A stretch of DNA of 64,000 nt from contig NZ_AP021901.1 of assembly GCF_018325905.1 (NCBI RefSeq), positions 6,356,001 through 6,420,000 of the forward strand, given 5' to 3'. Of this stretch, positions 8,815-51,990 are shown one piece after another. How positions within the stretch are numbered: the first letter of the stretch is position 1; every line of letters begins with the position of its first letter. The position numbers were made by a program, and so were the translations under genes. The DNA is from Pseudomonas sp. St316. GTDB taxonomy: Bacteria; Pseudomonadota; Gammaproteobacteria; Pseudomonadales; Pseudomonadaceae. The notes below the pieces were generated by a model. It ran no database searches and was not told the DNA's origin. It saw only the letters and a program-made list of their open reading frames with translations.

Positions 8815-10485
8815 TTACCAGCTCCTGAACTTGGCGGGCGGGTTGTAGAGGCCACCGGACCACTCCACCAGATCGGCCACGCTCTTGGCCGCGAGCAGCT
8901 CGCGGGTGGCGTCGGTGCGGCGGATACCGAGGTCTTCGGGCAAGGCGATCAGCCCTTCGCGGCGCATGCGCGCGGTGTCTTTCGGGTTGTGGCGCAGGCC
9001 GATGGCGGTGACGCCGGCCACGGCGGCGATCATTGCCTGGCGCTCCTCCAGGGAGCGGGCCTTGTACAGGTAGGCGATACCCTCTTCGGTCAGCAGGTGG
9101 GTGACGTCGTCGCCGTAGATCATGATCGGCGCCAGGGGCATGCCGGCCTTCTTCGCCACGTCCACCGCGTCGAGGGTCTCGACGAACGTCGGCTTGCCGC
9201 CCTCCTGAAAGGTCTCGACCATCTGCACCACCAGCTTCTTGCCACGCTCCAGCAGCGGCGCCTCGCCGTCGCCGTGACGCATGTCGAGCCAGGCCGGCGT
9301 GCCGTGACGACGACCGCGTGGGTCGTGGCCCATGTTTGGCGCACCGCCGAAACCGGCCAATCGGCCACGGGTGACGGTGGAGGAATGGCCGTCACCATCG
9401 ACTTGCAGAGTCGCGCCGATGAACAGGTCCACCGCGTATTGCCCGGCCAGTTGGCAGACCATGCGGTTGGAGCGCAGCGAACCGTCGCGGCCGGTGAAGA
9501 ACACATCCGGCCGCGCGGCGATGTAATTTTCCATGCCCAGTTCAGTGCCAAAGCAATGCACGCTTTCGACCCAGCCGCTTTCGATGGCCGGGATCAGGGT
9601 TGGGTGGGGATTGAGGGTCCAGTTGCGGCAGATCTTGCCCTTCAGGCCGAGGGATTCGCCGTAGGTCGGCAGTATCAGTTCGATGGCGGCGGTGTTGAAG
9701 CCGATGCCGTGATTGAGGGACTGGACGTTGTGTTTTTCGTAGATTCCACGGATCGCCATCATCGCCATCAGCACGTGCACAGGCTTGATGTGACGCGGGT
9801 CGCGGGTGAACAGCGGCTCGATGTAGAACGGCTTGTCGGCCACCACCACGAAATCGACCCAGGACGCCGGAATATCCACCCGTGGCAAGTCGCTGACGTC
9901 GTCCACCAACTGGTTGACCTGAACGATGACGATGCCGTCGCTGAAGGCCGCCGGCTCAATCAGCGCGGGGGTGTCTTCGGTGCTCGGGCCGGTGTAGATA
10001 TTGCCCGCGCGGTCGGCCATGAAACCGGCCGAGAGCACCACGTTGGGAATCAGGTCCACCACCAGCCGGGCATAGAGTTCGATGTAGGTGTGGATCGCGC
10101 CGATTTCCAGCAGGCCATCTTCGAGCAACTGGCTGATGCGCAGGCTCTGGGTGCCGGCGAAGGAAAAATCGAGTTTGCGGGCGATGCCACGTTCGAACAG
10201 GTCCAAGTGTTCGGAGCGGCCGACACTGGGCATGATCATGTGCAGATCATGCAGCTTCGAAGGGTCGACCTTGGCCAGTGAGCGCGAGAGAAAATCCGCC
10301 TGCTTCTGGTTGTTACCCTCCAGCACCACACGATCGCCCGGCAGGATCAACGCCTCCAGCGCGGCAACGATCTTGTCGGTGGGCAACACCACACCGTCGG
10401 CAAGCCCCTTCACCAGCTCGAGACGCCGCTGCTTTTCGCTGCGCCGCCGCGTCCAGCGCGAGTCGGGGGATATTGTTGTTGTCAT
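8815..10485 (-). CDS. mdcA: Malonate decarboxylase alpha subunit (acetyl-ACP:malonate ACP transferase)
   Basis: MdcA exchanges acetate on acetyl-MdcC for malonate, the first step of each catalytic cycle; malonate is then split to acetate and CO2. The product is 556 residues from the ATG at 10485, the family length; a GTG two codons upstream is the only alternative. Segments seen include GDRVVLEGNNQKQADFLSRS, HDLHMIMPSVGRSEH, NVVLSAGFMADRAGN and LNHGIGFNTAAIEL. It is the first gene of the nine-gene mdc-mad operon and is preceded by a candidate promoter at 10518-10546. Confidence 0.96.
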   Translation of the reverse strand: MTTTISPDSRWTRRRSEKQRRLELVKGLADGVVLPTDKIVAALEALILPGDRVVLEGNNQKQADFLSRSLAKVDPSKLHDLHMIMPSVGRSEHLDLFERGIARKLDFSFAGTQSLRISQLLEDGLLEIGAIHTYIELYARLVVDLIPNVVLSAGFMADRAGNIYTGPSTEDTPALIEPAAFSDGIVIVQVNQLVDDVSDLPRVDIPASWVDFVVVADKPFYIEPLFTRDPRHIKPVHVLMAMMAIRGIYEKHNVQSLNHGIGFNTAAIELILPTYGESLGLKGKICRNWTLNPHPTLIPAIESGWVESVHCFGTELGMENYIAARPDVFFTGRDGSLRSNRMVCQLAGQYAVDLFIGATLQVDGDGHSSTVTRGRLAGFGGAPNMGHDPRGRRHGTPAWLDMRHGDGEAPLLERGKKLVVQMVETFQEGGKPTFVETLDAVDVAKKAGMPLAPIMIYGDDVTHLLTEEGIAYLYKARSLEERQAMIAAVAGVTAIGLRHNPKDTARMRREGLIALPEDLGIRRTDATRELLAAKSVADLVEWSGGLYNPPAKFRSW

Positions 10486-10517
10486 GACCACTCCACGGGT
10501 TCGCTGTCGTGAGGGTC

Positions 10518-10546: not shown

Positions 10547-11035
10547 TCAAGCTTAGCGGCGGATCGTTACGGTTGGAGTAATGGTTTGCGAACCCGGCCC
10601 TTGTGGCTGGATTCGAATTCTGTGGCGAGGGGATTTATCCCTTCGCCACAAGAGTGCGTTCGACTTTAGCGCGGGTCGACAATGTCCAGCGCCCGATGGG
10701 CCGAACCTTCAAGGTCGAAAGCCAACTCGTTGAGCATGACGGGTGGCAGCCGTACGCAGGTTGGAACCGGGGTAAACGAGCCCGACAGACCCGAAGATCT
10801 CCCGCGCACAGCGGCCATAACGAAAGCATGGTCAAAAAACGACCGCAAGCATACGAAGGGCGCTTTCGCGCCGTCTACTTATCGGTTTTCCAAGCCCGGC
10901 CGCTGAATTTGCAACGACGGGAACGGTTAGCGATAGCCCTTCCCACCCGGCAACCGCCAGAGCTCGTCGGAAAAATCTGCTTGAACCTGGAAGGGTGTCC
11001 GACCATTCCCACAAACCCTGGTCGGCTGTCAGGCC
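10547..11035. other. Gene-free segment with hairpins, function unknown
   Basis: No convincing gene here. A hairpin of a different palindrome type (TGTGGCGAGGGG...CCCTTCGCCACA) lies at 10620-10650. On the minus strand, short open stretches (for example 10666-10848 and 10832-11014) shift frame and lack a good start. A perfect five-base-pair stem around 10859-10872 reads GGCGC-GAAA-GCGCC on the minus strand, that is, with a GNRA tetraloop, which hints at structured RNA. I have the impression that similar sequence recurs between genes of other Pseudomonas, but cannot check it. Confidence 0.4.
10619..10652. repeat. Single palindrome of the TGTGGCGAGGGG type
   Basis: The arms TGTGGCGAGGG and CCCTTCGCCACA pair with one mismatch around a loop of about seven bases. 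The sequence differs from the main REP family of the window and resembles another recurrent Pseudomonas intergenic palindrome. It is a lone copy here. Confidence 0.6.
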
Positions 11036-12545
11036 GCCATCGCGAGCAAGCTCGCTCCCACAGAGGTTTTTGGTCGTTTATAAGGTCAGTGTCCACCGCC
11101 GATCCCTGTGGGAGCCGAGCTTGCTCGCGATAGCGGCGGGCCTGCTTGCATCAATGCTGAATGTGCCGCCGCCTTCGCGAGTAAGCCCGCTCCCACAGAG
11201 GTTTTTGGTCGTTTATAAGATCAGTGTCCACCGCCGATTCCTGTAGGAGCCGAGCTTGCTCGCGATAGCGGTGGACCTGCCTGCATCAATACTGAATGTG
11301 CCGCCGCCTTCGCGAGCAAGCCCGCTCCCACAGAGGTTTTTGGTCGTTTATAAGATCAGTGTCCACCGCCGATCCCTGTGGGAGCCGAGCTTGCTCGCGA
11401 TAGCGGTGGGCCTGCTTGCATCAATCCTGAAGGTGCCGCCGCCTTCGCGAGCAGGCTCGCTCCCACAGAGGTTTTTGGTCGTTTATAAGATCAGTGTCCA
11501 CCGCCGATCCCTGTGGGAGCCGAGCTTGCTCGCGATAGCGGTGGGCCTGCTTGCATCAATCCTGAATGTGCCGCCGCCTTCGCGAGCAGGCTCGCTCCCA
11601 CAGAGGTTTTTGGTCGTTTATAAGATCAGTGTCCACCGCCGATTCCTGTAGGAGCCGAGCTTGCTCGCGATAGCGGTGGACCTGCCTGCATCAATGCTGA
11701 ATGTGCCGCCGCCTTCGCGAGCAAGCCCGCTCCCACAGAGGTTTTTGGTCGTTTATAAGATCAGTGTCCACCGCCGATTCCTGTGGGAGCCGAGCTTGCT
11801 CGCGATGGCGGTGGGCCTGCCTGCATCAATGCTGAATGTGCCGCCGCCTTCGCGAGCAAACCCGCTCCCACAGAGGTTTTTGGTCGTTTATAAGATCAGT
11901 GTCCACCGCCGATCCCTGTGGGAGCCGAGCTTGCTCGCGATAGCGGTGGATCTGCTTGCATCAATGCTGAATGTGCCGCCGCCTTCGCGAGCAAACCCGC
12001 TCCCACAGAGGTTTTTGGTCGTTTATAAGGTCAGTGTCCACCGCCGATCCCTGTGGGAGCCGAGCTTGCTCGCGATAGCGGTGGGCCTGCTTGCATCAAT
12101 CCTGAATGTGCCGCCGCCTTCGCGAGCAGGCTCGCTCCCACAGAGGTTTTTGGTCGTTTATAAGATCAGTGTCCACCGCCGATCCCTGTGGGAGCCGAGC
12201 TTGCTCGCGATAGCGGTGGGCCTGCTTTCAATGCTGAATGTGCCGCCGCCTTCGCGAGCAGGCTCGCTCCCACAGAGGTTTTTGGTCGTTTATAAGATCA
12301 GTGTCCACCGCCGATTCCTGTAGGAGCCGAGCTTGCTCGCGATGGCGGTGGGCCTGCCTGCATCAATGCTGAATGTGCCGCCGCCTTCGCGAGCAAGCCC
12401 GCTCCCACAGAGGTTTTTGGTCGTTTATAAGATCAGTGTCCACCGCCGATTCCTGTGGGAGCCGAGCTTGCTCGCGATGGCGGTGGGCCTGCCTGCATCA
12501 ATGCTGAATGTGCCGCCGCCTTCGCGAGCAAGCCCCCTCCCACAT
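11036..12545. repeat. Tandem array of eleven 135-bp REPIN units
   Basis: The anchor CAGAGGTTTTTGGTCGTTT occurs at 11061, 11196, 11331, 11466, 11601, 11736, 11871, 12006, 12141, 12273 and 12408: period 135 bases, with one 132-base step caused by a three-base deletion near 12227. Each unit has an inverted REP (CGCGAGCA..GCTCCCA), about 40 bases of spacer, a forward REP and a second spacer of about 41 bases. Every forward REP carries the same extra C (GGGAGCCGAGC), so the units come from one ancestral REPIN. Variants (CTGTGGG or CTGTAGG, GCAAGCCCGC or GCAGGCTCGC, ATAGCGG or ATGGCGG) are shuffled between copies, as expected from unequal crossing-over or conversion. The array fills the gap between the end of chpC and the segment upstream of mdcA. 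Confidence 0.95.
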
Positions 12546-12561
12546 TGGAACTTCGTATGTC

Positions 12562-13044
12562 TCAGGGTTTGTGGGGCTGTACCAGCCCTGCAGCCAACAC
12601 CAACTCTTCCAACGCCAACAAATCCGGCACTTTCGCCACATGCTCACCCACTTGCACCGCCGCCTGTTCCAACCCGCACAGCGGCACGTCGACGTAGCTC
12701 AATTGGCTGTCGAGCTTGTAGGAGCGCGGGATGCCCTGCACCAGCAGGGCAATGAAACGCAGCTCCGGCCGTCCGCCCAGGGCGTTGAGCACGACGATGC
12801 GCACTCGCTCGCCAATCACGGTCTTCTGGCCGCAGGCCGATTCGAAGCTCAGCAGCGGGATTTGCCGTTCGCGCCAGCTCACCCAACCCAGGAACCACGG
12901 CGGGGTATCTATATCGAAGGCGCTGCTCTGGTAGTCGATCAGTTCGGCCACGGCCACGTTGGGCAACACCAGATGCCGGTCGGCCAATGGCAACAACAGG
13001 CCGGTGAGCGGGCTGGTGCGCGAGTGAAGATGCAGGTCATGCAT
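12562..13044 (-). CDS. chpC: CheW-like protein of the Pil-Chp chemosensory system, ChpC-like
   Basis: A 160-residue single CheW-like domain, expected to couple a chemoreceptor to the ChpA kinase. Segments are GLLLPLADRHLVLPNVAVAE near the start, FLGWVSWRERQIPLLSFESA in the middle and RFIALLVQGIPRSYKL later, the usual beta-barrel pattern. It overlaps the end of chpA by eight bases and is last in the pilGHIJ-chpA-chpC operon. I name it ChpC by position and family; PilI, the other CheW-like protein, is separately present at 21432. Confidence 0.85.
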   Translation of the reverse strand: MHDLHLHSRTSPLTGLLLPLADRHLVLPNVAVAELIDYQSSAFDIDTPPWFLGWVSWRERQIPLLSFESACGQKTVIGERVRIVVLNALGGRPELRFIALLVQGIPRSYKLDSQLSYVDVPLCGLEQAAVQVGEHVAKVPDLLALEELVLAAGLVQPHKP

Positions 13045-29070: not shown

Positions 29071-29167
29071 CTATCGCGAGCAAGCTCGCTCCCACAGGGG
29101 ATTTTCGGTGAACACATGATGCGTGAACACCTCGATCCAATGTGGGAGCGAGCTTGCTCGCGATGCA
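29071..29167. repeat. REPIN after pyrC'
   Basis: Inverted REP (CGCGAGCAAGCTCGCTCCCA at 29075) and forward REP (TGTGGGAGCGAGCTTGCTCG ending near 29164) between the convergent ends of pyrC' and the TM2 gene. Confidence 0.88.
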
Positions 29168-51231: not shown

Positions 51232-51990
51232 CCTGTGGGAGCGAGCTTGCTCGCGATAGCGGTGGGTCAGCGGCATTGAAGCTGACTGACATACCCTCAT
51301 CGCGAGCAGGCTCGCTCCCACAATTGGATCAGCGTTCAGCCGCGGATTTGCAGGCGACAAAAAAACCTGTGGGAGCGAGCCTGCTCGCGATAGCGGTAGG
51401 TCAGCGGCATTGAAGCTGACTGACACACCCTCATCGCGAGCAGGCTCGCTCCCACAATTGGATCGGCGTTCAGCCGCGGATTTGCAGGCGACAAAAAACC
51501 TGTGGGAGTGAGCTTGCTCGCGATAGCGGTAGGTCAGCGGCATTGAAGTTGACTGACACACCCTCATCGCGAGCAGGCTCGCTCCCACAATTGGATCAGC
51601 GTTCGGCCGCGGATTTGCAGGCGACAAAAAAACCTGTGGGAGTGAGCTTGCTCGCGATAGCGGTAGGCCAGCGGCATTGAAGTTGACTGACACACCGCCA
51701 TCGCGAGCAGGCTCGCTCCCACAATTGGATCAGCGTTCGGCCGCGGATTTGCAGGCGACAAAAAACCTGTGGGAGTGAGCTTGCTCGCGATAGCGGTAGG
51801 TCAGCGGCATTGAAGTTGACTGACACACCGCCATCGCGAGCAGGCTCGCTCCCACAATTGGATCAGCGTTCAGCCGCGGATTTGCAGGCGACAAAAAAAC
51901 CTGTGGGAGCGAGCTTGCTCGCGATAGCGGTGGGTCAGCGGCATTGAAGCTGACTGACATACCGCCATCGCGAGCAGGCTCGCTCCCACA
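51232..51990. repeat. Second tandem array: six REPIN units of 133-134 bp
   Basis: The anchor CCTGTGGGAG occurs at 51232, 51366, 51499, 51633, 51766 and 51900, a period of 133-134 bases. Each unit has a forward REP, a 38-base spacer (GGTCAGCGGCATTGAAG...), an inverted REP (CGCGAGCAGGCTCGCTCCCA) and a 44-base spacer (AATTGGATCAGCGTT...GGCGACAAAAAA); length differences come from the A-run (6 or 7). The last unit lacks the second spacer. Copies differ by a few bases (GGGAGC/GGGAGT, AAGCTG/AAGTTG, CCTC/CGCC). It fills the gap between the convergent ends of the hydrolase gene and sseA. Spacers share nothing obvious with the array at 11036. Confidence 0.95.

Follow-up and report, generated by a model that had tools for sequence, protein, structure and literature searches.

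The DNA between mdcA and a CheW-like gene of Pseudomonas sp. St316 carries a unit of about 135 bp with inverted REP sequences that is repeated eleven times, which raises the question of where this unit came from and how it was multiplied. A sequence-only reading had taken the locus as the exceptional product of one ancestral REPIN, amplified in place together with its own spacers. We analyzed the window (the whole stretch of DNA under study, 64,000 nt in length) together with the St316 genome, a single contig of 6,777,545 bp, and other genomes of the genus. The array is a long case of the known BIME-2-like REP arrays and, judged by sequence comparison, is built from repeat modules present in many Pseudomonas species. 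Less expected are a genus-wide concentration of head-in loops near 44 bp and the occurrence of such doublets around RAYT genes.

The tandem structure described in the earlier reading, eleven copies with a period of 135 bp, was confirmed. TRF reports an array at 11033-12544 with a period of 135 bp, 11.2 copies, 95% matches and a score of 2709, higher than that of any other tandem repeat of the window, and REP parsing gives the order of its parts. If F denotes a forward REP (TGTGGGAG...) and R an inverted one, the array consists of one R followed by eleven repeats of 44 bp, F and R, that is, 12 reverse and 11 forward REPs. A REP stands at both ends, and sequence and parsing place no linker beyond the terminal REPs. 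The F-to-R pairs are eleven head-out doublets, inverted REP pairs for one hairpin as in a REPIN, and measure 91 bp except for the ninth (88 bp); the R-to-F pairs are head-in doublets, with a linker of 44 bp in 11 of 11 copies. Nine linker-to-linker steps are 135 bp long, and one is 132 bp long because of a 3-bp deletion. Both the alternating REP orientation in tandem (R44F91R, eleven times) and the constant linkers are as in BIME-2-like arrays. The features of the locus are listed here, with the strand where there is one.

11033..12544: whole tandem REP array, 135 bp x 11.2 copies (TRF, REP parsing)
11039..11062, minus strand: first REP of the array (reverse), which runs out into GGCCGCC and the left flank (sequence, parsing)
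11063..11106: first of 11 linkers, 44 bp, putative loop of a head-in REP doublet (parsing, family tests)
11107..11197: first of 11 head-out REP doublets (REPIN, 91 bp; parsing)
11301..11840: units 2-5 (counted from 0), one half of a lag-5 block duplication (unit comparison)
11976..12512: units 7-10, other half of the lag-5 block duplication (unit comparison)
12187..12274: head-out doublet with the 3-bp deletion, 88 bp (linker steps, parsing)
12454..12544: last head-out doublet, ending 17 bp from the CheW-like gene (sequence, parsing)
12562..13044, minus strand: CheW-like gene (chpC of the sequence-only reading), 3' end towards the array (PF01584)
8815..10491, minus strand: mdcA, malonate decarboxylase alpha subunit, 5' end towards the array (TIGR01110)
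10739..10822, minus strand: C4 antisense RNA-like element between the array and mdcA (RF01695, 57.2 bits, gathering threshold 45)
51232..51990: second REP array with the same layout and a different linker, 6 head-out doublets and 5 linkers (TRF, parsing)

The 17 bp at one end of the array lead to the stop of the CheW-like gene. On the other side, about 540 bp with the C4 antisense RNA-like element precede the start of mdcA. At Rfam gathering thresholds, no known structured RNA was found over the array, only the adjoining C4 RNA. For the 316-bp flank with the C4 element, 13 partial matches were found at other places of the genome, and a similar flank joins the same linker at two loci (L122, L126) of another genome, G039. 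The second array of the window, absent from the sequence-only reading, was detected by TRF with a period of 134 bp and 5.7 copies, and with a doubled period of 267 bp; its linker is at first sight unrelated to that of the first array. Near 29096, 42091 and 58504, the window has head-in REP doublets that are lone or nearly so, their gaps measuring 44, 40 and 44 bp.

The array was found at none of 80 named chpC loci, some of whose contigs stop inside the region (e.g. L034, L039). The longest evenly spaced chain among these loci (L070) has 4 linkers of different sequence. The initial REP pattern used for the chpC loci caught 17 of the 23 window REPs, and the counts rest on later parses. In P. kilonensis (L035, 5790-6864), REP-rich modules in the gap between chpC and mdcA enclose a gene that encodes a nucleotidyltransferase domain (PF18765), along with another ORF that has no Pfam match. 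Four loci (L046-L049) start with a similar GGGACC-rich inverted repeat.

The same unit is dispersed. A 26-base stretch of the linker (up to 3 mismatches) matches the St316 genome 14 times, 11 times in the array and 3 times elsewhere, and a 25-base stretch (up to 2 mismatches) was found in 12 of 398 genomes of the genus, St316 included; with three more loci in St316 and 11 of the 397 other genomes, the spacer is not unique to the locus. The nine dispersed loci inspected (three in St316, six in G039) have an R REP on the left of the linker and a REPIN on the right, the left REP being degenerate at one St316 locus (L168). In G039 the same unit is found in tandem, in 3 copies, and in G317, G303 and G241 a spacing of about 135 bp between matches suggests tandem copies as well. 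The extra C that the sequence-only reading had noticed is indeed present in all 11 forward REPs of the array, but it is not private to it: three other copies in St316 (one with a further change), 5 of 8 copies in G039, and the consensus units of two further St316 arrays (L169 and L172) carry it too. It is therefore no marker of the window array.

Arrays of this kind are common in the St316 genome, which holds 835 forward and 824 reverse REP cores (at most 2 mismatches), versus 0 for the reversed pattern. Sixty stretches of 20 kb, taken at even steps without regard to repeats, were analyzed as a sample of 1.2 Mb or 17.7% of the genome, in which one of 61 steps is omitted (6337001-6357000, adjoining the window). 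The sample contained 89 lone head-out doublets, which together with the 835 and 824 REP cores fits a dispersed many-copy element. TRF found 19 tandem repeats with a period of at least 40 in the sample (overlapping rows merged), 15 of them with REPs; nine REP arrays had a period of 130-138 and at least 3 copies. By extrapolation from these nine in 17.7%, the whole genome may contain perhaps about 50 arrays of about the same pitch. Long arrays fetched through earlier matches have 12.7 (L171), 11.0 (L172) and 10.2 copies (L169, also in the sample), and the window array is among the longest seen, with L171 being longer. Other array pitches in the genome are 104, 173, 179 and 364 bp. Elsewhere in the genome, a REP array with a 104-bp period has its REPs in the same direction (L282, 13159-13880), another has a 198-bp period with 110-bp gaps (L254, 12256-13247), and a 249-bp tandem repeat of 4.9 copies lacks REPs (L259, 8185-9411). 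The view of tandem REPIN amplification as exceptional found no support: arrays are common in this genome and tandem REPIN or REP clusters are described in the accessible parts of the literature (PMC3116915, PMC3733652).

The second spacer of the unit, 44 bp long, is most plausibly the loop of a head-in REP doublet (TT dimer), because gap lengths, lone doublets, the pattern across the genus and profile tests all point to it. Among 87 neighbouring R..F gaps of the St316 sample, 62 measure 43-47 bp and 25 lie outside this range. Lone head-in doublets of the sample (n=21) have loops of 43-46 bp in 13 cases, and others lie near 17 and 26 bp. The pattern CTCCCACA-N43..47-TGTGGGAG occurs in 180 of 298 Pseudomonas genomes, St316 having the top count with 317 exact pairs. 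Within 20 genomes, picked mostly for high head-in pattern counts, 3,672 matches fall on the 5 lengths of 43-47, versus 1,745 on the 20 lengths of 23-42 and 83 on the 20 lengths of 48-67. In one genome, G264, the 23-42 class exceeds the 43-47 class (185 versus 79). Among the matches listed, chiefly those for G264, there are two palindrome-like head-in loop families, one of about 27 bp (GGATTTGTG..CACAAATCC) and the other of about 34 bp (TTTGACCGAGTTC..GAATGCGGTCAAA).

Linker identity is 96% (0.956) within St316 arrays, 46% (0.461) between arrays and 34% after shuffling, with linker clusters defined at 75% identity, which favours the contrast of within-array and between-array values. The idea that the linkers of different arrays are unrelated, in line with their few pairwise matches, was rejected, as profile tests give a weak shared consensus. 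On a profile of 35 non-redundant linkers from other genomes, 36 of 36 St316 linkers scored above the mean of their own shuffles, the weakest two with z 1.9. The window linker reached z 4.3, with 0 of 500 shuffles as good, and by this profile resembles the lone head-in doublet loops of other species. Lone head-out REPINs provided flanks for comparison (192, from 96 REPINs), which are unconserved past about three bases. With the four REP-adjacent positions removed, the linkers scored above these flanks (AUC 0.818), and 1.0% and 10.9% of the 192 flanks reach the scores of the window linker's two halves. The flanks in turn scored higher than shuffled linkers (AUC 0.694), which makes the profile signal partly unspecific. 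Mirror complementarity of St316 linkers was 0.32, versus 0.249 for shuffled ones (z 4.7). The linker as an independently covarying palindrome was nonetheless discarded: pairing with the half of a different linker gives 0.357, which therefore reflects a shared consensus, and we claim no covariation. In the accessible parts of the open-access literature, we found no statement of a 44-bp head-in class, which may already be in print.

As for the growth of the array, its units have 17 variable columns and differ on average by 6.5 of 135 bases. The differences are lowest at lag 5, with a mean of 3.67 versus 5.4 for neighbours, and units 2-5 compared with units 7-10 have 3, 1, 2 and 0 differences. 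When the order of the units was permuted, a four-pair run as good was seen in 11 of 20,000 cases (26 of 20,000 when the first unit was kept in place). The doubled or tripled TRF periods of other arrays (267, 273, 408 bp) point in the same direction, i.e. to duplication of blocks of several units. The place behind chpC was inspected at 13 of the 80 named loci; a single REP is found there in 4 relatives, and 9 carry other content. In the 4 relatives, the single REP leads straight into the sequence beyond the far end of the array, which fits growth from one REP, with the reservation that the sequence identifying this site is also part of dispersed modules. The starting point of the array was probably a single REP next to chpC, from which recombination would have enlarged it by duplicating units in blocks. 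Of the earlier idea of growth from one ancestral REPIN, the part that stands is local amplification of a REPIN-containing unit, as seen from the 6.5 differences in 135 bases and the lag-5 block duplication. The part that finds no support is the nature of this unit as a local REPIN with its own spacers: it is dispersed, occurs in 11 other genomes and has a linker that fits a genus-wide loop class.

The reading that we consider likely is that of a BIME-2-like chain, in which head-out (REPIN, about 90 bp) and head-in (44-bp loop) doublets alternate and share REPs, and which was dispersed by RAYT and multiplied by recombination. A pitch of about 135 bp then arises because it is twice the sum of a REP (about 23 bp) and a loop (about 44 bp). 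RAYT, a Y1 transposase, would have dispersed the REP doublets, and a linker-REPIN unit would have joined a single REP already present immediately behind chpC. The subsequent multiplication, at times of several units at once, would be due to unequal recombination or slippage of replication between the repeats, and the same processes would have kept the copies within the array alike. More speculatively, the array may be for the most part a by-product of mobile REPs and of recombination that is tolerated behind the 3' end of a gene, and it might give the chp transcript strong terminal hairpins and hinder read-through towards mdcA.

Purely local duplication of one REPIN with neighbouring host DNA, the 44-bp spacer being ordinary flank, would account for copies that are alike within and unlike between arrays (0.956 versus 0.461, a contrast that the 75% clustering favours). 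It is nevertheless improbable, and largely refuted by the presence of the same linker elsewhere in the St316 genome and in 11 other genomes. Moreover, the array lacks a linker outside its terminal REPs, the spacer length is equal in unrelated arrays, and the 192 lone-REPIN flanks show no conservation past the first bases. Accordingly, we rejected a derivation of the linker from host flank on the grounds of linker dispersal and unconserved flanks. The pitch itself might have been selected. DNA gyrase wraps about 130-140 bp of DNA. Arrays with a pitch of about 135 bp could form a lattice of sites for a DNA-wrapping protein, gyrase in the first place, and so relax or anchor chromosome loops. The pitch is common to different arrays, and E. 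coli BIME-2 is reported as a strong gyrase binder in the accessible part of PMC2817692. We regard such selection as unlikely, though somewhat less so than local duplication, since lone head-in doublets, which offer no pitch for selection to act on, have the same loop length, and since the genome has other pitches as well (104 to 364 bp, as given above).

Tandem repeats are prone to miscounting, and the true genome could have fewer units or just one. We find an assembly artefact very unlikely, given that the genome is a single 6.78 Mb contig, that the units are not identical but have their 17 variable columns and the 3-bp deletion in an ordered pattern, and that similar arrays exist at many loci and in other genomes. 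Finally, 135 is 3 x 45, and the array might encode a protein with a 45-residue repeat; three ORFs (131, 220 and 140 aa) traverse it, and its sole length change is 3 bp. This coding reading was rejected and has hardly any chance of being correct, as stops interrupt the frame between the three ORFs, the pitches of sister arrays (133, 134, 136 and 137) are for the most part not divisible by 3, and the sequence is made up of REPs and loops.

Returning to the BIME-2-like chain, its layout has several known relatives. Like the array, E. coli BIME-2 has alternating REPs in tandem with constant segments between them, and a RAYT in the genome. For P. fluorescens SBW25, 16 ordered tandem REPIN clusters are reported (Bertels and Rainey 2011, PMC3116915). 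In the accessible part of that paper, the largest cluster has four REPINs and one REP, as opposed to 11 and up to 12.7 units here, and the segments between REPINs are treated as flanking sequence. The HH/TT REP dimers of PMC3733652 are similar in comprising head-out and head-in doublets with spacers alike in length and unlike in sequence, complementary spacer ends and tandem reiteration, with Pseudomonas included. They differ in that spacers are given as 20-100 bp in general, and the parts of the paper available to us mention neither a 44-bp class nor HH-TT alternation with shared REPs nor RAYT framing of the layout. REPa of P. fluorescens-group strains (PMC3390384, as far as its text was accessible) agrees in abundance range and RAYT association, with two RAYTs in Q8r1-96, a strain related by group; its doublet spacing is different (60-70 bp), and the word 'tandem' occurs 0 times in the main text.

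RAYT genes were present in 20 of 20 genomes searched. St316 has three REP-associated tyrosine transposases (NF047646). One of these genes (L003, NF047646) is flanked by TGTGGGAGCGAGC REPs, as expected of a cognate RAYT, and the RAYT at 1768287 is framed by the main REP in the order R-44-F-gene-R-44-F. BIMEs adjoin about one third of detected RAYTs according to the accessible part of PMC2817692. We examined five RAYTs, the three of St316 and two from sampled stretches of G010 and G034. Three of the five lie between two head-in doublets, whose gaps measure 44/44, 42/43 and 32/26 bp; of the remaining two, one is flanked by a 65-bp doublet and, at its opposite end, by a single REP, and the other has none within 350 bp. 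We tentatively suggest, as a possibility that we rate well below the BIME-2-like chain itself, a second, head-in class of RAYT-linked REPs. Its loop would keep near discrete lengths (about 44, and also about 17, 26 and 34 bp) with drifting sequence, it would form R-44-F-rayt-R-44-F frames, and the long arrays would be such frames with the REPIN loop in place of the gene.

Stabilisation of 3' ends and attenuation of read-through have been proposed for REPs in general. As RNA of the chp-coding strand, two units of the array have a predicted folding energy of -145.7 kcal/mol (z -11.5 versus 200 shuffles), and the minimum-energy fold pairs the head-in doublets. The repeated hairpins that the sequence-only reading had envisaged for an RNA of this locus are supported by this model, in which two units are far more structured than shuffles. 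With such a strong predicted fold, a role of the array in 3'-end stabilisation or read-through attenuation is possible.

REP arrays are usually put aside as clutter. The arrays of St316, by extrapolation perhaps about 50 of roughly the same pitch and with differing linkers, together with hundreds of REP doublets, constitute a natural experiment on REP multiplication, on what sets REP spacing, and on whether both types of doublet, head-in and head-out, are acted on by RAYT. If the RAYT-linked head-in class is real, head-in doublets would be structural components of the unit in RAYT transposition or amplification rather than idle spacers.
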